From: a virus
Virus record (IMG/VR): IMGVR_UViG_3300032668_000053
Location: 1 to 41,022 of that record
DNA: 41,022 nucleotides
Direction: 5' to 3' (one strand)
The position numbers and the translations under genes were made by a program. Under the pieces are notes generated by a model, which made no database searches, had not been told where the DNA came from, and saw only the letters and a list, made by a program, of their open reading frames with translations. This document shows, piece by piece, positions 2,690 to 39,878 of the stretch (its first letter is position 1; the number at the start of each line of letters is the position of its first letter).

Positions 2690-2708
2690 GTCGCCAGATC
2701 CGCCATCA

Positions 2709-2732
2709 CGCCCGCCGTCAGGCGGGCGTTTT
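2709..2732 (+). terminator. Rho-independent terminator
   Basis: Perfect 8-bp GC stem CGCCCGCC/GGCGGGCG with a GTCA loop followed by TTTT, placed 20 bp after the stop codon of the 1955-2689 gene. Textbook arrangement for ending that transcript. Confidence 0.85.
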
Positions 2733-2747
2733 GCTGTACGGGGAAGC

Positions 2748-2848
2748 GCATTGCATCTGCATTGCACGCCATGGCGCGGGCGTTCCGCGCGCGCGAGCGG
2801 GGCGGCCGCATTGCATCTGCATTGCACGGGCGTTCCGCGCGCGCGAGC
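2748..2848. repeat. Two-copy composite direct repeat (GCATTGCATCTGCATTGCA plus a GC-rich box)
   Basis: GCATTGCATCTGCATTGCACG occurs at 2748-2768 and again at 2808-2828. Each copy is followed by a second identical 21-bp box (GGGCGTTCC followed by an alternating GC run) at 2778-2798 and 2828-2848, the first pair being separated by about 10 extra bases. Related GCATTGCA clusters lie at 1761-1806 and 3108-3132. The arrangement resembles iterons or operator arrays. Confidence 0.8.
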
Positions 2849-2862
2849 CACCAGAAAAACCC

Positions 2863-2977
2863 CCTAATCGGCGATTTCCCGATTCACCCTCCGGTGGGAT
2901 GGCCCCACCTCTCCCTAATCGGGGTTTTCAGCTTTCACCCTCCTAATCGGCCATTTCTGCGGTGGGACCATCCCACC
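2863..2977. repeat. Imperfect 51-bp tandem repeat with two 17-bp palindromes
   Basis: CCTAATCGG occurs at 2863, 2914 and 2942, and TTCACCCTCC at 2883 and 2934, giving a period of 51 bp for the first unit pair. Two related 17-bp palindromes, GGTGGGATGGCCCCACC (2893-2909) and GGTGGGACCATCCCACC (2961-2977), are spaced 68 bp apart. Paired palindromes like this are typical of repressor or initiator binding sites. Confidence 0.7.
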
Positions 2978-3161
2978 GATTACAAACACCAGGTATTGAC
3001 AGCCTGAAAAAACGGGCGAACCATGGATTATTCCGAATCGAAGCCCATCGGGCGAGAGAGAACGCTTTTAGCGTATCTCCCTGATAACCCGAATCACCCC
3101 TGAGCAGGCATTGCAAATGCATTGCAAATGCAAGGTTTTACCGATGTCCAAAAAGTGATAA
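2978..3161. promoter_or_regulatory. Gene-poor regulatory stretch
   Basis: Contains a perfect -35-like TTGACA at 2996-3001 without a clear -10, a 26-codon ORF at 3023-3103 (ATG to TGA) with no supporting signal, a small hairpin ACGC/GCGT near 3062-3074, and a tandem GCATTGCAAATGCATTGCA motif at 3108-3132 lying just past the stop of the minus-strand gene ending at 3162. I do not see a confident gene. Confidence 0.35.
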
Positions 3162-8290: not shown

Positions 8291-9223
8291 TCAGACTCCC
8301 AAAGTGTTTGCTGTCGTTTCATGCCCTATGATTTTACCACTGGCTGGCAACTCCTTCATGTTCCAATACTCAGCCGGGATGAGACCTTGTTGGCCGGGGA
8401 GTAAGGCGCAGTCTTGCTTGACCCACACCGGGACACCAGCGGCCTTGCACTGGATGGCTACGTTCTGTATAGCCCCAACGGTGCATGGCCATCCTCCACC
8501 TTTCGCCTCCCGGCGTTTCGCCCCCGACTCACCGCCAACAACAACCCAGTCGATCCCGTGCAACAAGCATTGGCGGCCAACTCCCAATCCGCACCCGATA
8601 TCATGCTCGCTGGTGAACTGAATCGGCTCCAGGATCGGCTCAACGCTCAACCAGCGGATCTTCGCTGGGATGGACAGCAACTCCGGTATCCGTTCATCGG
8701 CCATCGCTTGGGTTCCACATGTGACGCCGATCCAGACATTGGCGGGAGATTGACCGTTCAGCCACATTTCGGACCAGTTGTAGGTTGACTCAGCCATGGG
8801 TGCTTTGCGGGATTCAGTAACGCGCTGCCACCACAATTCCGGCCGCTTCGTAAGCAGCAAAAAGTCCAGACGCGAGCACGTCCGAATAACCTCCAGGAAG
8901 TCGGCCAGCCACTCGATTGGCACTTGAGGATCGAGCCAGTCCATGAGCGACGGGAAGATGCGGGGGCGGGTTGGCCCTGCAACGCGAGGGCGCCCCGTGT
9001 AATCCGGCACGTAAGCGGCCTTCGCCTTGCGATCCCATCGCGGGATCTCAGTCCAAAACCCCTTGCTCCGCACCCTCGGGGATTTGTCCCCCCACCCGGC
9101 CCATTTTCGTTTGAGGGTCAACTCGCGGGCGTAACAGTGGGCGCATTCCGCGCTGACCTCGGTGCAACCGAACCATGGGCTAGCCGTGCTGTCCGCCCAA
9201 GAAATCTTTGTGCTTTCGCTCAT
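8291..9223 (-). CDS. Phage Gp37/Gp68 family protein (DUF5131)
   Basis: 310 aa from ATG 9223, which overlaps the upstream stop as ATGA. It opens with ISWADSTASPWFGCTEVSAECAHCYAR, the signature of DUF5131: a tryptophan-rich lead and a CxxxxxxCxxC cysteine cluster, resembling a radical-SAM-like iron-sulfur site. Further family features are FPSLMDWLDPQVPIEWLADFLEVI, LLLTKRPE, WIGVTCGTQ, RWLSVEPILEPI and WVVVGGESG, then VWVKQDC near the end. Widely distributed in phages; the biochemical role is not established, a radical-type modification enzyme is suspected. All expected blocks are present, so it looks intact. Confidence 0.9.
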   Translation of the reverse strand: MSESTKISWADSTASPWFGCTEVSAECAHCYARELTLKRKWAGWGDKSPRVRSKGFWTEIPRWDRKAKAAYVPDYTGRPRVAGPTRPRIFPSLMDWLDPQVPIEWLADFLEVIRTCSRLDFLLLTKRPELWWQRVTESRKAPMAESTYNWSEMWLNGQSPANVWIGVTCGTQAMADERIPELLSIPAKIRWLSVEPILEPIQFTSEHDIGCGLGVGRQCLLHGIDWVVVGGESGAKRREAKGGGWPCTVGAIQNVAIQCKAAGVPVWVKQDCALLPGQQGLIPAEYWNMKELPASGKIIGHETTANTLGV

Positions 9224-9426
9224 ATCTTCGCTCCGAACGGCGGTCGGCCGGGTTTCCCCTTGCGCCAGGGCTTCGTCCCATATCGGGCGTGGTTGCGGGC
9301 GTTTTGCCTGGCTGCGCACTTGCCGCAATTCGCGGCATCCTTTCGGACCCGCTCCTTTTTGCGCCCACAGGTATTACACCGGCCATCGGACAGGCGAGCC
9401 AACTGCCATTCGCGCTGACGACTCAT
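9220..9426 (-). CDS. Small zinc-finger-like protein
   Basis: 68 aa from ATG 9426 (ATGA overlap with the upstream stop). Contains CNTCGRKKERVRKDAANCGKCAARQNARNHARYG, two Cys pairs in a strongly basic context, followed by a basic tail KPWRKGKPGRPPFG. Such proteins are probably DNA- or RNA-binding. Coupled to the DUF5131 gene downstream. Confidence 0.65.
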   Translation of the reverse strand: MSRQREWQLARLSDGRCNTCGRKKERVRKDAANCGKCAARQNARNHARYGTKPWRKGKPGRPPFGAKI

Positions 9427-13889: not shown

Positions 13890-14062
13890 TCGCGATCTAT
13901 TTCACCCTCCTGTTGTGGGCGCTGACGTGCTCGGCGGTTCTGGCGCTTTACTTTCGCCACCGCGATCAAAAGTGTCCTCTTTGCCGCACGCGCCATGACC
14001 CGGCGCACTGTCCGCGCGAGTACGTCGAGCCTCTTCTGAAAAACCTCAACAAACTGCACTGA
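13886..14062 (+). CDS. 58-aa single-span membrane protein with Cys/His motif
   Basis: ATG 13886 overlaps the previous stop as ATGA. Residues 2-22 (IAIYFTLLLWALTCSAVLALY) form one membrane segment with a short exposed N-terminus. The rest is CPLCRTRHDPAHCPREYVEPLL, a CxxC...HC arrangement that could bind zinc. The gene fills the space between its neighbours exactly. Function unknown; possibly an inner-membrane anchor or exclusion-type protein. Confidence 0.6.
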   Translation: MIAIYFTLLLWALTCSAVLALYFRHRDQKCPLCRTRHDPAHCPREYVEPLLKNLNKLH

Positions 14063-14069
14063 ATAACCT

Positions 14070-14393
14070 ATGTCTGACAAAATTGAAATCAAACCCGCAA
14101 TCTGGATCGGGGAAGTCATCTACTCAACACTGAAAGCCGCAAAGATTGCCAAGCTACAGCAAATCCTTCCCGATGGCATCGGAAGCCGCGAGGACGCCGC
14201 CAGGGCCATCATGGAAAACGCCGGGGATGTTGCCGAAGTGTTGACGACCCACCCCGAGACCGCCCCGGCGCCGAAGCGCAAATACGTTCGCAAGATCAAG
14301 TCGGTCGCCGCGGAACCCGCCCGGCTGAAATCGGACGCCACCCGATTTCCCCGAACGGAGAACCACGTCGAGGCGGGAGGGACCAATGCCTAG
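14070..14393 (+). CDS. Hypothetical 107-aa protein
   Basis: ATG 14070, 7 bp after the previous stop. N-terminal half is a mixed alpha/beta start (IEIKPAIWIGEVIYSTLKAAKIAKLQQIL) and a helix GSREDAARAIMENAGDVAEVL; the C-terminal half is a Pro/Lys/Arg-rich flexible tail (APAPKRKYVRKIKSV). The tail suggests nucleic-acid contact. Ends 8 bp inside the next gene. Confidence 0.6.
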   Translation: MSDKIEIKPAIWIGEVIYSTLKAAKIAKLQQILPDGIGSREDAARAIMENAGDVAEVLTTHPETAPAPKRKYVRKIKSVAAEPARLKSDATRFPRTENHVEAGGTNA

Positions 14394-14763
14394 CATGACC
14401 AGCCAAGAGTATGAGGCTTATCTGAGTCGCGCCGGGGGGCAACGGGCGTCGGCCCCTCCCGATGCGATTCAGCGCGAATCCGACCTGCACGATCAAATCA
14501 TGGCCGACATCCGCCGGCGGGGTTGGCTTGCCGTTCACTCCCGGATGGACATGGCTACCACTACGGCCGTCGGCGTTCCTGACTTTGTGATCATGGGCGA
14601 CAAAGGCCGCATCTGGTGGATCGAGTGCAAAGCGAAGCGCGGTAAGCTCGAACCGGAGCAACTGGCGTTTCACGCGCAGGCCGCCAGGCTCGGCCACAAG
14701 GTTTCCACCGTTTGGAACTTCACCGAATACCTTAACGCCATCACCATACAGGAGGCCGAATGA
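14386..14763 (+). CDS. VRR-NUC domain nuclease
   Basis: 125 aa. After a flexible N-terminal 30 residues, ESDLHDQIMADIRRRGWLAVHSRMD gives the first helix and strand, VGVPDFVIMGDKGRIWWIECKAKRGKLEPEQLAF carries the catalytic G-x-PD...ExK core (PD at about 68-69, E and K in WIECKAK), and GHKVSTVWNFTEYL is the last strand and helix. This matches the VRR-NUC branch of the PD-(D/E)XK superfamily, found in phages as a stand-alone module and thought to act on branched DNA such as Holliday junctions. All expected residues are present. It follows the recombination genes. Stop overlaps the next ATG. Confidence 0.9.
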   Translation: MPSMTSQEYEAYLSRAGGQRASAPPDAIQRESDLHDQIMADIRRRGWLAVHSRMDMATTTAVGVPDFVIMGDKGRIWWIECKAKRGKLEPEQLAFHAQAARLGHKVSTVWNFTEYLNAITIQEAE

Positions 14764-14912
14764 CCAAATATGCACTGCGCCGCCTCTCTGACGGGTTGTA
14801 TGACTCAATGACCGATCCGAGTTGGATCGGCAGAGTTTCACCACGCCTGATGTTGAAATTGGGCTCGCTTTCGCCTGAAAATGTGGCTAAATGGAAGGGG
14901 GCGGTAAAGTGA
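14760..14912 (+). CDS. Hypothetical 50-aa protein
   Basis: ATG 14760 overlaps the nuclease stop (ATGA) and its own TGA overlaps the GTG start of the DUF6745 gene. Product MTKYALRRLSDGLYDSMTDPSW..., basic and aromatic with no recognised domain. Support is coupling on both sides. Confidence 0.5.
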   Translation: MTKYALRRLSDGLYDSMTDPSWIGRVSPRLMLKLGSLSPENVAKWKGAVK

Positions 14913-16168
14913 TCACATCCCTAACGCAAGAACAGATGAGACGATTTCCCGAGTTTGTGGAAAAGTGGAAGGCCATTGGCCTTTCTACCGAACCCGCCAA
15001 TCGAAAAGAGGCAGAGATCGGCGTGGTAGAGGCTTATAAAGCTGCTGGTCTTGATGCTCCTAAAATCGTGTGGTGCGGCTCCCCAATGTCGCAAGGATTG
15101 GTACGGGCCATCGTTTTTAACTGCGTCCCGAGTGAAGTCCGGTCTTCCGTCAGGGCTTCCGTCGGGGCTTCCGTCTGGGCTTCCGTCGGGGCTTCCGTCA
15201 GGGCTTCCGTCGGGGCTTCCGTCGGGGCTTCCGTCGGGGATTCCGTCTGGGATTCCGTCGGGGCTTCCGTCAGGGATTCCGTCGGGGATTCCGTCAGGGA
15301 TTCCGTCGGGGCTTCCGTCTGGGATTCCGTCGGGGATTCCGTCAGGGATTCCGTCGGGGCTTCCGTCTGGGATTCCGTCTGGGCTTCCGTCAGGGATTCC
15401 GTCAGGGCTTCCGTCTGGGATTCCGTCAGGGCTTCCGTCGGGGATTCCGTCAGGGCTTCCGTCGGGGATTCCGTCGGGGATTCCGTCTGGGATTCCGTCG
15501 GGGCTTCCGTCAGGGATTCCGTCAGGGATTCCGTCTGGGATTCCGTCGTGGCTTCCGGTTATGGTCAGCACGATGCTGGATGGCTGTCCTTCTATGATTA
15601 TTTTCGGCGGGTCTGTGATTTGGACGAACAGACACAAAAGCTTTTGGGGATATGGAGGATTTCTCGAAACGCCGGGTGGTGGTTGCCTCACAAAAAGATG
15701 TGTTGGGTGTCTGAACGCCACAACATCTTGAACCGGGATTCCCAAGGGAGACTCCACAAAGATGGCGGGGCGGCATTAGCTTACCCGGATGCGTGGGAGA
15801 TTTATGCTCTCAACGGGGTCAGGATGATGCGAGAGCACGTCATGACCCCGGCAGAGAAGTTGGACCCCAAGAAGGTGCTGGCCGAGTCCAACGTTGAGGT
15901 CCGCCGAGAATTGATCCGCAAGATTGGCATGGAGCGGTTCATGGATGTTTGTCCGCATAAACGGTTGAACCTACAAGGAAATTACGAATTATTTTCCATC
16001 GAATTGACTCCTGAATTGAAGGATACTCGATGGCTCAAGATGTTGAACCCCTCGATTGGGGTTTGGCACGTTGAAGCGGTTGCCCCGGAGTGCTCCACGG
16101 TGCAGCAGGCGATCAACTGGCGAGCGGGCCAGAAGGAAACCAACTGGGAGCCGGAGACATTGACATGA
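14909..16168 (+). CDS. DUF6745 protein with 34 tandem (A/D)SV(R/G/W) repeats
   Basis: 419 aa from GTG 14909 (GTGA overlap); an ATG at 14891 is in frame. Residues 1-78 (TQEQMRRFPEFVEKW ... IVWCGSPMSQGLVRAIVF) match the start of DUF6745, where a W-C-x-SP motif precedes the repeats. Residues 79-214 are 34 four-residue units, each encoded by 12 bp. The C-terminal part has GQHDAGWLSFYDYFRRVC, NAGWWLPHKKMCWVSERHNILNRDSQGRLHKDGGAALAYPDAWEIYALNGV and ESNVEVRRELIRKIGMERFM, all DUF6745 hallmarks. Function of the family is unknown; the repeats probably form a stacked beta structure. The partner gene downstream (16165-16563) overlaps by 4 bp. Confidence 0.9.
   Translation: MITSLTQEQMRRFPEFVEKWKAIGLSTEPANRKEAEIGVVEAYKAAGLDAPKIVWCGSPMSQGLVRAIVFNCVPSEVRSSVRASVGASVWASVGASVRASVGASVGASVGDSVWDSVGASVRDSVGDSVRDSVGASVWDSVGDSVRDSVGASVWDSVWASVRDSVRASVWDSVRASVGDSVRASVGDSVGDSVWDSVGASVRDSVRDSVWDSVVASGYGQHDAGWLSFYDYFRRVCDLDEQTQKLLGIWRISRNAGWWLPHKKMCWVSERHNILNRDSQGRLHKDGGAALAYPDAWEIYALNGVRMMREHVMTPAEKLDPKKVLAESNVEVRRELIRKIGMERFMDVCPHKRLNLQGNYELFSIELTPELKDTRWLKMLNPSIGVWHVEAVAPECSTVQQAINWRAGQKETNWEPETLT
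15143..15550 (+). repeat. 34-copy 12-bp tandem repeat inside the DUF6745 gene
   Basis: Unit GMTTCCGTCDGG (M=A/C, D=A/G/T). Across 34 copies nearly all variation is at two bases: the second base of the Asp/Ala codon and the first base of the Gly/Arg/Trp codon. The first and last units differ slightly (TCT start, GTG end). The TCC GTC core is constant even at the silent third positions. There is no stop in any frame, which creates spurious long ORFs in other frames. Confidence 0.95.
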
Positions 16169-16563
16169 ACGATATTCCAAATGACCATTATTCCAGCCTT
16201 GATTGTGTGGCTGGAGTTGGGTGCAAAGTAACCGTTGAAACAGTCCATAAGATGAAAACTAAACTGCAACAGGGGGACGTGATCCTCCGTAAAATCGAAA
16301 CCCTTCCCACGGGAGGGAAGTCGGTCTCTAAAGGCCGATGCGTCCTGGCCGAAGGCGAACACACCGGCCACGCCCACGTTGTTGAAGATGACGGGGCGGA
16401 GTTGATCCAGATCGGGGAGAAGATGATCCTGCGACTGGGCAAATCTGCCACGGTCGTCCACGAAGAACATAATCCGATCGTGCTGGATTCCGGCGTATGG
16501 GAAGTTGGACGGGTGCAGGAGTTCGATTACTTCGCGCAGATGGCTCGTAACGTGGCTGACTGA
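16165..16563 (+). CDS. Conserved DUF6745-associated protein with TGHAH motif
   Basis: 132 aa from ATG 16165, 4-bp overlap with the DUF6745 gene. Central beta-rich part reads LQQGDVILRKIETLP, then CVLAEGEHTGHAHVVEDDGAELIQ and ATVVHEEHNPIVLDSGVWEVGRVQEFDY. From memory, a protein with this EGExTGHAH and HEEH pattern often sits beside DUF6745 genes. The clustered His/Glu residues (TGHAH and HEEH) suggest a metal site in a small beta-barrel or cupin-like fold; that part is inference. It may process, or assemble with, the repeat protein. Confidence 0.75.
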   Translation: MNDIPNDHYSSLDCVAGVGCKVTVETVHKMKTKLQQGDVILRKIETLPTGGKSVSKGRCVLAEGEHTGHAHVVEDDGAELIQIGEKMILRLGKSATVVHEEHNPIVLDSGVWEVGRVQEFDYFAQMARNVAD

Positions 16564-16564
16564 T

Positions 16565-16699
16565 ATGAGCAGGCCGCGAAAATCCGCGCTGACTCACTTC
16601 GCGCCGCCCTCGCCCTGTCCGAAAGGGGGCAGGGATGAACTTTCACCGGGGAACCCCGCGCACGGTAACGGGCGGGCGGATGGATTGTCGCCGTCATAG
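16565..16699 (+). CDS. Possible 44-aa ORF within a structured-RNA region
   Basis: ATG 16565, 1 bp after the previous stop, TAG at 16697-16699. The Pro/Gly/Arg-rich product (MSRPRKSALTHFAPPSPCP...) has no resemblance to a folded protein, and the DNA contains a GNRA-loop hairpin and one arm of a 10-bp inverted repeat. I consider it more likely to be untranslated or poorly translated RNA. Confidence 0.2.
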   Translation: MSRPRKSALTHFAPPSPCPKGGRDELSPGNPAHGNGRADGLSPS

Positions 16700-16783
16700 T
16701 TCCCCGGTCTATTTACGCCAGCCGTGAGCCTTTTTCCGTTAGCTCACGCAGCCCCTTGTCGGGGGCCTAAGCTGGCGCGTTTT
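16613..16783 (+). ncRNA. Candidate structured RNA: hairpin and two branched elements
   Basis: Three consecutive foldable elements without a convincing gene. (1) 16613-16634: a CCCTGTCC stem closed by a GAAA tetraloop. (2) 16645-16708: perfect 10-bp outer stem ACCGGGGAAC/GTTCCCCGGT enclosing CCCG/CGGG (16655-16672) and GGCG/CGCC (16675-16692). (3) 16716-16777: outer stem CGCCAGC/GCTGGCG enclosing CGTGAGC/GCTCACG (16723-16748) and GCCCC/GGGGC (16751-16766), followed by TTTT at 16780. Element 3 is a clear three-way junction. Could be a regulatory or accessory RNA, or a branched terminator/leader for the zinc-ribbon gene at 16853. Not similar to any RNA family I know. Confidence 0.45.
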
Positions 16784-16852
16784 CCCCATGCAATCGGGCT
16801 TCCAACCCCGATACCCCGCCAGCGCTCCCCAGTTGGAACGGGACATTGACCT

Positions 16853-17044
16853 ATGCCTGAATTTGACACCGAACACCGCGACGAGGCCGTATGTCCGCAC
16901 TGCGGGCACGTAGGCGAATGCAGCTATGAGCTATTTGGCGATTTTGAGGATTATGCCGAAACTGAAACGGTATGCAACCAATGCGACAAGCCGTTCAAGG
17001 TCAGGTTGCATATCACGGTCACCTACACCACCGAAAAACTATGA
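16853..17044 (+). CDS. Zinc-ribbon protein (63 aa)
   Basis: ATG 16853. Contains CPHCGHVGECSYELF and, 26 residues on, CNQCDKPFKVRLHITVTYT: two CxxC knuckles separated by an acidic loop, the classic zinc-ribbon layout, ending in a beta strand. Role unknown; probably a small nucleic-acid- or protein-binding module. Its stop overlaps the next ATG (ATGA), so it is coupled to the next gene. Confidence 0.75.
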   Translation: MPEFDTEHRDEAVCPHCGHVGECSYELFGDFEDYAETETVCNQCDKPFKVRLHITVTYTTEKL

Positions 17045-17205
17045 CCAAGAAAACCCTCGAACACCGCCTGAAGGTGGCTATGGACGTGCTCCGGGACATT
17101 GCCGATTCCAGGCCGCGAACCCACCACGTCCGGTATGCCGCGTCGTTCGTCGCCCTCATGGACGCCCTGGACACCGAAGCGGCAAAGCGAAAGAGGAATC
17201 CATGA
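17041..17205 (+). CDS. Hypothetical 54-aa protein
   Basis: ATG 17041 overlaps the zinc-ribbon stop. Helical, basic product (MTKKTLEHRLKVAMDVLRDIADSRPRTHHVRYAASFVALMDAL) with a KRKRNP tail. No family recognised. Stop overlaps the ATG of a possible 41-aa ORF. Confidence 0.55.
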   Translation: MTKKTLEHRLKVAMDVLRDIADSRPRTHHVRYAASFVALMDALDTEAAKRKRNP

Positions 17206-17327
17206 ACCGAGGAACGGGACCACGCGCACAGGGGTCCATGGGGGGATTATTTCTCGCGCGGATTCGTCCGATTAGTCGCGAGCCCTGCCGCCTTGTGGCG
17301 GTGGGAAAGCCCCGCCGGCCAACCTAA
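17202..17327 (+). CDS. Possible 41-aa ORF overlapping a hairpin-rich stretch
   Basis: ATG 17202 overlaps the previous stop, but the product (MNRGTGPRAQGSMGGLF...) is Arg/Gly-rich and the DNA contains four hairpins. The first 12 bases, ATGAACCGAGGA, are the same as those at the start of the 7393-7659 gene. Either a small coupled peptide or untranslated RNA. Confidence 0.25.
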   Translation: MNRGTGPRAQGSMGGLFLARIRPISREPCRLVAVGKPRRPT

Positions 17328-17343
17328 AAGCCGGTCGGCGGGG
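17216..17343 (+). ncRNA. Candidate structured leader RNA with four hairpins
   Basis: Four stems in 128 bp: GGACC/GGTCC (17217-17237); CTCGCG/CGCGAG (17253-17282) enclosing CGGA-TTCG-TCCG; CCGCC-TTGT-GGCGG (17288-17301); and CCCCGCCG/CGGCGGGG (17310-17343), extendable by three more pairs with one wobble. The last stem ends just before the 22-bp repeat that carries the next start codon, so this may be the leader of the 17365 gene or a terminator-like barrier before a new promoter. Confidence 0.4.
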
Positions 17344-17346
17344 ACA

Positions 17347-17368
17347 CTTTAACGATACTGAACTATGA
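17347..17368 (+). repeat. 22-bp direct repeat overlapping a start codon (copy 2)
   Basis: Exact match to 7656-7677 (minus strand), ending in ATGA of the 17365 gene. Contains GATACT at 17354-17359, five bases before the ATG. Likely a promoter or translation control element used at two places. Confidence 0.75.
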
Positions 17369-17727
17369 GCCTACCGCAAACCAAGCGGCTCACTCAATGG
17401 AATGAGCGAAACCGCAACCTGATTCAATCCTGCTGGTCCGGCACCGCTCCCAGGTCCAAGGCCATCAAGGCGGCCTGTCTCGAATGCGTTGGGGAGGATG
17501 TGGACGCTGTGCGCGAGTGCGCGGACACCTGCTGCCCCCCCTGGCGCTATCGGCCGTTCCAGGTCCGAAATTCTAAGGGCGCTATCCGTGAGACGCTGAA
17601 CCGCGTGTCCCGAAAGCTCAACCAGGAACGCGCGCCAGGCCACCGGAGGTGTGCCGTGAGAACCTACCTCCTAATCGTCTCCCGCCATAGCGCCGTCCTC
17701 AACGGGAATGGCCACGTGATGCGATGA
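17365..17727 (+). CDS. Phage Cys-rich small protein (120 aa)
   Basis: ATG 17365, set within the 22-bp repeat. The core KAIKAACLECVGEDVDAVRECADTCCPPWRYRPF matches a common phage pattern (AIKAxCxxC...C....CPLxPxR-like) in which four cysteines bind zinc. A basic helix (RETLNRVSRKLNQERAPGHRR) follows. Function unknown. The stop overlaps the next ATG (ATGA). Confidence 0.7.
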   Translation: MSLPQTKRLTQWNERNRNLIQSCWSGTAPRSKAIKAACLECVGEDVDAVRECADTCCPPWRYRPFQVRNSKGAIRETLNRVSRKLNQERAPGHRRCAVRTYLLIVSRHSAVLNGNGHVMR

Positions 17728-18065
17728 AGCACGAAAAGTGCGAAAAGTGCGAAAACACCACTGCGCCCTGGCGCATTGGCCAGGTCGCGTCGTATCTATT
17801 CCGCCGCTGGTTTGGCCGCGCTCCAGACCGCAGCTTCCTGGTGTGGTCCGGCAACGCCGCCAGTGCGCGGGACCGCCGCGGAAACTGCATCACGTTGGAG
17901 CAACGCCACTGGCCGAGCAAGGCCCTCGTCCGCCAACCCCCGCTGCCATTGGTCCGATACGACTTAACCGCCGCACCCGTCGAACCTACGCCCGAACAAT
18001 TCGGACTCGCGGGAGCAATCGAGTTGGCTCTGGCCAAAATCGAAAAGGCAAAGGTGATGGCGTGA
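17724..18065 (+). CDS. Hypothetical 113-aa protein with N-terminal CxxC
   Basis: ATG 17724 overlaps the preceding stop. N-terminus MKHEKCEKCENTTAPWRIGQVASYLFRRWFG: a CxxC pair followed by an aromatic, basic segment. The rest is Pro/Arg-rich with a C-terminal helix FGLAGAIELALAKIEKAKV. A partial zinc knuckle that could pair with another subunit; no family recognised. Stop overlaps the next GTG. Confidence 0.55.
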   Translation: MKHEKCEKCENTTAPWRIGQVASYLFRRWFGRAPDRSFLVWSGNAASARDRRGNCITLEQRHWPSKALVRQPPLPLVRYDLTAAPVEPTPEQFGLAGAIELALAKIEKAKVMA

Positions 18066-18193
18066 AATACTCCGATTTTCTGGCTACGAAATCAATCTCG
18101 GAAGTGGTTGGGGAGGTTTTGTGTACACGACAAGGCGCGGCAGGTTGCGCCGCCGCGCCCGTCTCGGATTCTCTAGCGCCAGAGATTAGGTGA
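18062..18193 (+). CDS. Hypothetical 43-aa ORF at the end of the rightward unit
   Basis: GTG 18062 in a GTGA overlap. Product VKYSDFLATKSISEVVGEVLCTRQGAAGCAAAPV..., last gene of the unit, overlapping the convergent peptidase gene by 8 bp. It contains a strong hairpin (18134-18159). Weak support. Confidence 0.4.
   Translation: MKYSDFLATKSISEVVGEVLCTRQGAAGCAAAPVSDSLAPEIR
18134..18159 (+). terminator. Possible terminator hairpin between converging units
   Basis: Perfect 8-bp stem GGCGCGGC/GCCGCGCC with a 10-base loop, lying where the rightward unit meets the leftward late unit. No T-run follows on either strand, so if it ends transcription it is atypical. Confidence 0.35.
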
Positions 18194-18722
18194 TCGTGCT
18201 GCCCGCGGGCGCCAGCCGCAGCGACACGGCGAGCATCCCCGGATGGACCGCCCCAGGTTCGATGCGAACGAGCAACGGAGCGCCGATGTCGCGGCAGTCC
18301 TTGGCGACGAGTTCGGAGCAAAACAGCCTTCCTCCCGGCCTGGGGGCCTGCTTGGTCAGGAAAAAAAGTACGTCACGGTAATCATAAGGCATCCCGAATT
18401 GCCCGTCCAAGATGAGGATCAGCTGGCGTTCCTGTTCCTCGGTCAACCCTGGCGTGAACTGGAACAGGTCAACCGGAGTTTTGTCCGTGTGCTGCGTCGA
18501 GATGCTTGGCGAGCACTTAACGCCCCCGCTCCATGCCTCAACGCACGTCCCCGCGTCAAAGCATGGCAGGCGAGTTAGAGCGCCTGCCTGAGCCATGTCC
18601 CGCGCAAGGCGGGCGGTCGTGGTGTCGAATACGAAACCGGCATGGCTGTATTCCGAGCGTGTGATCCACTCGATCAGCTTCGAAGGCCAGAATGACCGGC
18701 CTTTGAACAGGGCGATGATCAT
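18186..18722 (-). CDS. YiiX/NlpC-P60-like cysteine peptidase or amidase
   Basis: 178 aa from ATG 18722, which overlaps the upstream stop as ATGA; the frame is open much further upstream but that part is antisense-like. IIALFKGRSFWPSKLIEWITRSEYSHAGFVF provides the His of a circularly permuted papain-like fold, CVEAW lies at the acidic position, and GMPYDYRDVL ... RLFCSELVAKDC provides the catalytic Cys. This order (His first, Cys late) is that of the YiiX/permuted NlpC-P60 group. Located at the end of the late unit with membrane proteins and lipoproteins, it is a good candidate for the peptidoglycan-degrading lysis enzyme, though no separate binding domain is seen. Confidence 0.75.
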   Translation of the reverse strand: MIIALFKGRSFWPSKLIEWITRSEYSHAGFVFDTTTARLARDMAQAGALTRLPCFDAGTCVEAWSGGVKCSPSISTQHTDKTPVDLFQFTPGLTEEQERQLILILDGQFGMPYDYRDVLFFLTKQAPRPGGRLFCSELVAKDCRDIGAPLLVRIEPGAVHPGMLAVSLRLAPAGSTIT

Positions 18723-19243
18723 GGATTTAAGGTTTGATGCCAGCGCAGGTTCATTTCCTCGAAGGCCGCGAGGCCCTGGGCTGTGACGAGGAAGTTGGTT
18801 CCCTCCGGCACGATCCACCTGGGAGTCGGCATCGGAGGCACCAGGCGATCCCCGAATCGCTGGCAAAGGTTGGTGTACCGTTCCGCAAAGAACGGGGTCA
18901 CAAGGAAGCCATTCGTTCCGGCTGCCAGGATGCCGGAATTGGCCACGCCGCTGTCTAGGGATGGCCCGCCAGGCGTCACGATGGGCGGGGCGATGGTGCA
19001 GCCCACCAGAGCGCACAGGATGGCCAGGGAGGCGCACAGGACGCGCAGCGCGGCCAAAGCGGACGTGTTTCCGGCCTCGGCGGCGTCCACCAGGGCGAGC
19101 ACGGCATCCTTGTGGGTCTGGAGTTGTCGCGCCTGCTTGGCCTGGACTTGGGCGGGGGTGTTTTCCTCGGCCTGTAGCTGGAGGCCCACCTTGAGCGCGT
19201 CGTCAGCCAGGGAGACTGCGGCGGTGGCAATGTCGGCGGCCAT
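18719..19243 (-). CDS. Hypothetical 174-aa protein with internal membrane/lipobox-like segment
   Basis: ATG 19243. Residues 1-60 are a helical soluble part (LQLQAEENTPAQVQAKQARQLQTHKDAVLALVDAAEAG). Residues about 68-82 (LCASLAILCALVGC) form a hydrophobic segment ending in an LVGC box of lipoprotein type, followed by TIAPPIVTPGG and a proline-rich outer part. A lipobox normally sits at the N-terminus, so this is unusual: either a membrane-spanning protein or a fusion of a cytoplasmic gene to an old lipoprotein. Position suggests the lysis or envelope cassette. Ends by overlapping the peptidase gene. Confidence 0.6.
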   Translation of the reverse strand: MAADIATAAVSLADDALKVGLQLQAEENTPAQVQAKQARQLQTHKDAVLALVDAAEAGNTSALAALRVLCASLAILCALVGCTIAPPIVTPGGPSLDSGVANSGILAAGTNGFLVTPFFAERYTNLCQRFGDRLVPPMPTPRWIVPEGTNFLVTAQGLAAFEEMNLRWHQTLNP

Positions 19244-38096: not shown

Positions 38097-39878
38097 TTAC
38101 TGGATTGGCAAGCCCCCTGACTTTTCCGCCAGCATCAGCAACTCATACCGGCTCGGCTCGCGGCTTACTGACGCGAACACGTCGATCACGTCTCCCTCAG
38201 GCGCCCCCAGCCGATCCCATGGCTGGCGCGCGGACAGCGCGGTGTTCTGCCACCCTGGAGATTCCTTGGATGCGTTTACCGCCACCGCAGCCTTGATTAG
38301 CCCGCTTGAAAACCCGCCATGCGGCATCATGGCGCCGAACACCGCATCGGCCCGATCTGGAGATTGAACCCCACGCTTGGCCATGTCCGGCTTGCTCTCG
38401 ATGTAGAGCTTTTCCTTGCCCGCCTTGGTCACCCGCTTTCGGTTGAGCATTTGGCCGCGGGTCTTCTGGTCAATGTCCAGAACTACCGTCCGCGCGGTAA
38501 TCTGCTTGCTGCCCTCATACCAAATCTCAGACCCAGCGGATCCGTACCGCTCGTTCGACGGCACGCCGTCGTTGTTCACTCGAGTCAGACACCACCCCAT
38601 GGTGTCAAGGGCGTCCATCACCAGCTTTCCTCCGCCGCCCTCATCCCCGGAGATTTGGTGCGCCTCAAGCCCCAGGCGCTGCCAATGGGCAATGAAGGTC
38701 TCGCACACGCCGGGGGTTGGATTCTTCGGACTCGCCACCAAATGATCATTGTGGAACGCCACCGGGAGGGTGATGACGTTACCGCGCCGCAACGCCATCG
38801 TGTTTTCCGCTCCGCCACTCGACCAGGCGAAGTCGCAGAAAGCATGCACGTCGCCGGTTTCCTGGCGCGGAGGCGGGTTGGCTATGCATTCGTCCAGCGC
38901 CGGCCCATTGATGACCGAATCCTCGACCAGCGGCATGAACTCATGGCCCAGAATGGATTCCGCAAAGGCCGGGAAGTCTTTCCAGTCGTCCTTGATCTGC
39001 TTGATTTCATCCGGGGAAATGTGCGAGCAATCCTCGGCCCACAACTCGACCCTTCGGTAGCTGTCGTCCTTCCGCATCGCCTCATAAAACCAGCCATCCT
39101 CATGGCCGGGAGATGACATCAAAACCAGAAGCTGCGGACGAATTCGGCCGACCAGCACCTTCTTGAGCCATTGCGCCGACGTCTTGGCCTCGTCCACAAT
39201 CCAGATCAATGGCTGGTTGGGAAGCTCCCCATGGTCGCCTTCCGCGCGACCCGGATCGTTCGTCGTGATGCAGGTGAGAAACCCCTTGCGCCCGGTGGGT
39301 GCGTTTCCTTTGAATTGGGCAACCTCGATATAGGGGGTCTCGTACCACTTCCACGCGTAGGAAAACCCATCTCCGGGGCTCGTCTGAGTGAAGCGCGCGC
39401 GGAACTGTTCGAGCGCCGGCCAAATCTGCGTCTCAACCTGCGTCCAGGCGCCCGAGGTGATTTTGATCTTGGCCAGGGGCCAGATGTGAAACAGCCAAAT
39501 CACGAGCGCCGGCAGGCACCTCGCCGTCTTCCCGCCACCATTGGCCGCCATCAGCGCAACGCGACCCGGCGGCCCCGGCCGCCGCCCTCCGACATTGGTG
39601 TTTCCGAACGACTTTCCGAGTTCCGAGGCGCACACCTCGAGAAACTGCCGCTGCTTGGCGTAAAGCGTCTCCCCGCGATCAACCCCGTCAACAAACCTCG
39701 GCCAGAGAATCAATTCCGCGAAGTCGGCCGGGTTGGCGGCGGCTTTCGCAAGCGTCATCCCCGGATGATCGTCTTCGGCCCTCTGCCCACCGGCCCCAAG
39801 AATAGCCGCAGCCTTATCAACTTTGCGCGGTCTGCCCCGCTTTCCGTGCCTGCCAATTGCAATTACTGGGGTGCCCAT
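38097..39878 (-). CDS. terL: Large terminase subunit
   Basis: 593 aa from ATG 39878. Basic N-terminal tail (RHGKRGRPRKVDK) and linker, then the ATPase: Walker A MAANGGGKTARCLPAL at about 111-126, Walker B LIWIVDEAKTSAQWL at about 229-243, and LVLMSSPGHEDG downstream as the coupling segment. C-terminal RNase H-like nuclease: HAFCDFAWSSGGAENTMALRRG (first acidic residue), HQISGDEGGGGKLVMDAL and SPDRADAVFGAMM (last acidic residue). These are the parts of the packaging motor that cut and pump DNA into the prohead. Full length, intact. Preceded on the genome by a 13-bp inverted repeat. Confidence 0.9.
   Translation of the reverse strand: MGTPVIAIGRHGKRGRPRKVDKAAAILGAGGQRAEDDHPGMTLAKAAANPADFAELILWPRFVDGVDRGETLYAKQRQFLEVCASELGKSFGNTNVGGRRPGPPGRVALMAANGGGKTARCLPALVIWLFHIWPLAKIKITSGAWTQVETQIWPALEQFRARFTQTSPGDGFSYAWKWYETPYIEVAQFKGNAPTGRKGFLTCITTNDPGRAEGDHGELPNQPLIWIVDEAKTSAQWLKKVLVGRIRPQLLVLMSSPGHEDGWFYEAMRKDDSYRRVELWAEDCSHISPDEIKQIKDDWKDFPAFAESILGHEFMPLVEDSVINGPALDECIANPPPRQETGDVHAFCDFAWSSGGAENTMALRRGNVITLPVAFHNDHLVASPKNPTPGVCETFIAHWQRLGLEAHQISGDEGGGGKLVMDALDTMGWCLTRVNNDGVPSNERYGSAGSEIWYEGSKQITARTVVLDIDQKTRGQMLNRKRVTKAGKEKLYIESKPDMAKRGVQSPDRADAVFGAMMPHGGFSSGLIKAAVAVNASKESPGWQNTALSARQPWDRLGAPEGDVIDVFASVSREPSRYELLMLAEKSGGLPIQ

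Follow-up and report, generated by a model that had tools for sequence, protein, structure and literature searches.

Judging from its predicted folding, the gap that separates the DUF6745 module from a zinc-ribbon-like gene in a 41,022-base virus record (the window, i.e. the whole stretch of DNA analysed) is a candidate structured RNA unlike every Rfam 15 family. The structured gap (16613-16783) was read on the + strand, as were the genes on both sides. Upstream lie the DUF6745 gene (14891-16168, +; PF20530, E 6.5e-25) and the second gene of the module, a member of the phrog_27831 family (16165-16563, +). Downstream, in the same direction, follows the zinc-ribbon-like gene (16853-17044, +), which encodes 63 aa with CPHC...CNQC (phrog_6504, PHROG E 5e-12). 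A Mu-type portal is encoded in the same phage genome.

In the initial annotation the gap held no gene that convinced, and the annotation had named a conserved protein in the frame at 16565-16699 as an observation that would count against an RNA. Measured by the codon usage of the phage itself, this frame of 44 aa obtained a coding score of -8.8 bits, and its second-position GC was 0.68 compared with 0.35-0.53 in the neighbouring gene calls. The negative score bears out the absence of a gene, gives no sign of such a protein and rules out a protein-coding explanation of the gap. Comparison with the covariance models of Rfam 15 yielded no match in the window at the gathering cut-offs and, at a relaxed threshold (E up to 10), only two chance matches, both outside the element; the pRNA model for the phi29-type RNA was matched at neither threshold. 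This agrees with the earlier description of the element as different from known families.

Folding of the gap and its elements

To compare folding with shuffled controls, as the initial annotation had proposed, both strands of 16613-16783 were folded against dinucleotide shuffles. The + strand reached -83.3 kcal/mol, whereas the shuffles averaged -67.6 ± 4.4 (z = -3.6), and the reverse complement gave a z of -3.2, so that both strands lie below their controls. Energy does not discriminate between the strands, because the reverse complement comes close to the + strand, which is usual where stems consist mostly of Watson-Crick pairs. When the whole record was scanned in segments of 171 nt, 16613-16783 had the lowest energy relative to shuffles among 409 segments of the + strand and ranked third over both strands.

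Three foldable elements had been described in this region, followed by a T4 run, and all of these were present. The first, hairpin 1 (16613-16634, +), consists of CCCTGTCC and GGGCAGGG around GAAAGG and has 8 bp including one G-U. It folds at -15.1 kcal/mol with a z of -4.0 on the + strand (0/300 shuffles as low) and is weaker on the - strand (z -2.3). Its description as a GNRA-capped stem holds for the stem but is ambiguous for the cap, as the loop in the predicted fold is GAAAGG and becomes GAAA only if a bulge is allowed. The second element is a branched unit (16645-16708, +; inverted repeat I9), in which a perfect 10-bp outer stem (ACCGGGGAAC/GTTCCCCGGT) encloses two hairpins, exactly as annotated. 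Its fold has a z of -2.4, with 7 of the 300 shuffles as low. A perfect 10-bp inverted repeat alone is not rare: six with such spacing occur in the window versus 2.9 +/- 1.6 in shuffles, which is about a twofold excess.

The third element, at 16716-16777 (+), is a clean three-way junction with the 7-, 7- and 5-bp stems that had been reported, all of them perfect. P1 (16716-16722/16771-16777, +) and P2 (16723-16729/16742-16748, +) have 7 bp each, and P3 (16751-16755/16762-16766, +) has five Watson-Crick pairs plus one U-G. The strands that connect the stems are 0, 2 (CA) and 4 (CTAA) nt long. A descriptor of such a 7/7/5 junction matched the + strand of the window only once, at this position. 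Whole-window shuffles contained any such junction in 7/400 cases, and none with all three stems that long was found on either strand of 1.27 Mb of DNA from related phages and prophages; these figures are generous, because the descriptor was defined after the junction had been seen.

Either strand of the junction folds (z -3.7 on + and -4.4 on -). This would suit a DNA-level element, i.e. a replication, recombination or protein-binding site in which the palindromic arms act as DNA. We consider such a role improbable, since hairpin 1 is clearly better on the + than on the - strand and a better candidate for a control region lies at 2690-3161. That region carries iteron-like repeats (GCATTGCATCTGCATTGCA twice, with related GCATTGCA-like copies near 3110) and a long inverted repeat, GGTGGGATGG...CCATCCCACC, together with a long hairpin and the strongest minus-strand fold of the record. 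From its sequence it is a candidate origin or control region.

It is also conceivable, although unlikely, that the gap has no RNA function, being a GC-rich stretch that folds well by chance and was chosen for folding well. About 1% of the segments of the same genome show a comparable energy gain over shuffles, and many gaps had been inspected for the initial annotation. Moreover, both strands fold, no conservation was found, and the entire gap (16565-16852) has a z of only -1.7. This has to be weighed against the finding that none of the 200 shuffles reached the energy of the region, and against the scarcity of the 7/7/5 junction in the whole-window shuffles, which here lies beside two other good stems.

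Flanks of the DUF6745 module and search for relatives

The T4 run (16780-16783, +) is part of CGTTTT at 16778-16783 and starts two bases past the junction stem; it is not a canonical intrinsic terminator tail, in which the T run immediately follows the GC stem. No terminator was called on the + strand within 16000-18000. The DUF6745 and phrog_27831 genes form a recurrent adjacent pair, in either order, in about 25 fetched phage loci (the pair loci being window 14891-16563 and L004-L038, L084 and L085); a literature search returned no paper naming DUF6745. The flanks of the module in the other phages averaged -1.3 kcal/mol against shuffles, compared with a genome background of -1.0. As they are no more structured than background, the idea that the RNA is part of the DUF6745 module was rejected. 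An exception is L084, where a different, single long imperfect hairpin with a T-rich tail (1912-1978, TGTCCGCACG...CGTGCGGACA) is located directly 3' of the phrog_27831 gene. With its flank it has a z of -3.9, and by sequence it resembles a terminator or a processing site bordering the module.

The presence of this T-tailed hairpin at the same place, together with the stable GC-rich stems that precede CGTTTT in the window, raises the question of whether the element is concerned with termination, attenuation or the formation of an RNA end. The branched hairpins and the T4 run would then terminate, pause or trim the transcript where the module finishes on its 3' side, with neither a ligand nor a function in trans. 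We regard this as possible but doubtful, given the missing terminator call, the shortness and two-base offset of the T run and the unstructured 3' flanks of the other modules.

Relatives of the element were sought with a covariance model built from its single sequence. Such a model reaches close relatives only, and its negatives therefore mean that no near copy is present in the searched DNA, not that a family is absent. No second copy was detected in 50 records reached via the module or zinc-ribbon proteins, in 47 terminase-related records plus three Akkermansia phages, or in 12 genomes carrying terminase relatives. No credible one appeared in 384 class genomes or 320 order genomes of the Verrucomicrobiota (some are in both sets). 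Weak matches in two genomes (L186 and L187) were at the level expected from 384 genomes; they overlap long open frames, disrupt the branched unit or lose many of the pairs, and were judged to be chance. A match at 3139-3155 of L002 was rejected as well, as a 650-aa open frame of the other strand spans it and the sequence around it folds poorly. Searches of the gap with blastn and nhmmer against 87 loci returned the window itself only. In 50,697 phage records, blastn found chance 21-mers only for the gap and nothing for 14000-19000. A scan of IMG/VR with the P2 pattern gave 16 matches, which is near a rough chance estimate; none had a convincing P1/P3 context or matched the model, and they were set aside.

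Scans with the capsid, the AAA protein and DnaB as single proteins revealed no close phage relatives. The large terminase (38097-39878, -) is 29-31% identical to those of Akkermansia phages; the closest terminases are 33-39% identical, and identity was at most 39% among the IMG/VR matches returned. By these sequence comparisons the phage is an orphan among the searched records. Of 15 terminase relatives in genomes, 12 reside in contigs whose label is Akkermansia (ten cases) or Verrucomicrobia subdivision 3 (two cases), and from the terminase gene alone the host phylum is probably Verrucomicrobiota. The zinc-ribbon family was not found in 50 related records. The regions upstream of two distant zinc-ribbon relatives, in L086 and L087, were without structure.

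The initial annotation had proposed a phage-encoded RNA or leader. The significant fold, the lack of a gene and the lack of an Rfam match support this, but the failure to find a homologue and the nearly equal opposite strand do not. One form of the proposal is a discrete small RNA that is made during infection and acts in trans, for example by regulating RNAs or proteins of the host or by serving as a decoy for them. The compact, self-contained folds, the length of about 170 nt and the terminal T run would fit such a molecule. There is nevertheless little chance that this is its nature: a promoter-like site is lacking at the 5' end, since the sole + strand call, at 16445-16473, matches 9/12 positions and chance alone would give 0.5 such matches, and a search of about 100 virus records and about 700 genomes of the host phylum yielded no homologue.

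Predicted extension towards the zinc-ribbon gene and alternative pairings

Folding of the downstream sequence indicated that the structured stretch is longer than 16613-16783. The folds annotated there are present, but the feature runs on to about 16842 and stops 10 nt short of the start codon at 16853. The sequence 16700-16852 has a z of -3.5, 16784-16852 alone has -1.9, and 16613-16852 taken as one unit has -2.4 (1/200 shuffles as low). Two more hairpins are predicted in this part. Hairpin 4 (16793-16812, +), from the fold of 16700-16852, pairs ATCGGG with CCCGAT around the loop CTTCCAAC. Hairpin 5 (16815-16842, +), from the comparison of states and their energies, pairs CCCG+CCAGC with GTTGG+CGGG. 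Further downstream, 17206-17364 is a second hairpin-rich gap, with CCCCGCCGGCC/GGTCGGCGGGG around a 12-nt loop and CCGCC-TTGT-GGCGG; its z is only -1.5.

GCTGGCG, which is the 3' strand of P1, has a second possible partner within hairpin 5, CGCCAGC (16817-16823); this 7-mer arises in 0.7% of the shuffles of 16784-16852 (a post hoc figure). The loop sequence TTCCAAC of hairpin 4 is complementary to GTTGGAA (16832-16838), which overlaps hairpin 5, and such a loop pseudoknot appears in 0.12% of the same shuffles, again post hoc. In the putative pseudoknot, a 6-bp and a 7-bp stem would be joined by loops of 1, 0 and 19 nt, which is an H-type geometry. The nested fold has an energy of -53.7 kcal/mol, compared with -46.9 when the alternative P1 pairing is enforced (about 7 kcal/mol worse). 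With the pseudoknot strands kept open it is -46.4 kcal/mol, and the duplex of the pseudoknot helix contributes -7.3. The pseudoknot is not predicted to win, because this duplex at best only levels the nested fold before any pseudoknot penalty is applied. Switching of P1 between its two partners is thus possible on sequence grounds but not predicted. With respect to the two exclusive folds that mark a riboswitch or leader, one of which controls the downstream gene, the alternative pairings are rare in the post hoc shuffles, but their stability falls short of that of the nested fold or, in the most favourable case, approaches it. A more ambitious proposal is a new class of phage RNA, a modular leader whose junction senses a ligand or protein and signals, through the CGCCAGC/GCTGGCG pairing and the pseudoknot, to the start codon of a zinc-ribbon gene in a phage that makes no use of Shine-Dalgarno sequences. 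We judge this very improbable.

The start region of the zinc-ribbon gene at 16853 is without a Shine-Dalgarno sequence. In the window, a Shine-Dalgarno-like 4-mer is found at about 5/22 gene-call starts, approximately the chance number, so there is no enrichment, and many starts read TATG or ACCTATG. These start-codon contexts suggest that initiation in the phage is Shine-Dalgarno independent. One gene with a TTG start encodes a DUF5131 protein in the left arm (8291-9328, -; Pfam E 1e-49).

Taken together, the reading that we tentatively prefer is that the gap is a cis-acting structured stretch of a polycistronic + strand mRNA, placed after the DUF6745 module and before the genes that follow it. 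The co-directional run of genes, the absence of a notable terminator or promoter call and a structure that reaches the initiation region of the zinc-ribbon gene make this the best-supported reading. The transcript would fold into hairpin 1, the branched unit and the three-way junction, followed by two hairpins that end 10 nt before 16853, and the structure would separate expression of the downstream genes from that of the upstream module. Most likely it would tune how easily translation of the zinc-ribbon gene begins, because the ribosome footprint takes in hairpin 5 on an mRNA that lacks a Shine-Dalgarno sequence; structure close to the start codon may be a natural control point in a phage without enrichment of that sequence. 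It may also shield the transcript or slow the polymerase. We infer the transcription of the gap, the relevant strand and every functional step of this cis-acting model. Arguing against it are the lack of a second copy in the searched DNA, the minus strand that folds almost as well, the unstructured upstream regions in L086 and L087, the module flanks that are unstructured on average and the 1% of segments with a similar energy gain.

Comparison with known systems

At present the element is a well-defined candidate, the interest of which hinges on finding close phage relatives. Should it be confirmed, Verrucomicrobiota phages of a lineage that has been sampled poorly would gain a new structured RNA, and control of genes on mRNAs lacking Shine-Dalgarno sequences could be tested on it. 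The pRNA of phi29 (Rfam Phage_pRNA), also borne by a phage, is about 170 nt long and has a three-way junction. The candidate shares these features, but it has no Rfam match, adjoins a DUF6745 module and belongs to another kind of phage, the genome of which encodes a Mu-type portal. Like GOLLD, ROOL and HEARO, which are large structured RNAs of phages or metagenomes, it would be an orphan, intergenic, phage-borne structured RNA, although much smaller and again without a match in Rfam. With intrinsic terminators it shares a GC-rich stem followed by T residues; it differs from them in that the stem is branched and only four T residues follow, with an offset of two bases and no terminator call. 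Compared with riboswitches and protein-binding leaders, the candidate matches no described family, is not 5' of a known metabolic gene and has an alternative P1 that is about 7 kcal/mol worse, but it resembles them in its branched fold 5' of a gene, its alternative partner for the closing stem and its possible pseudoknot near the start codon.
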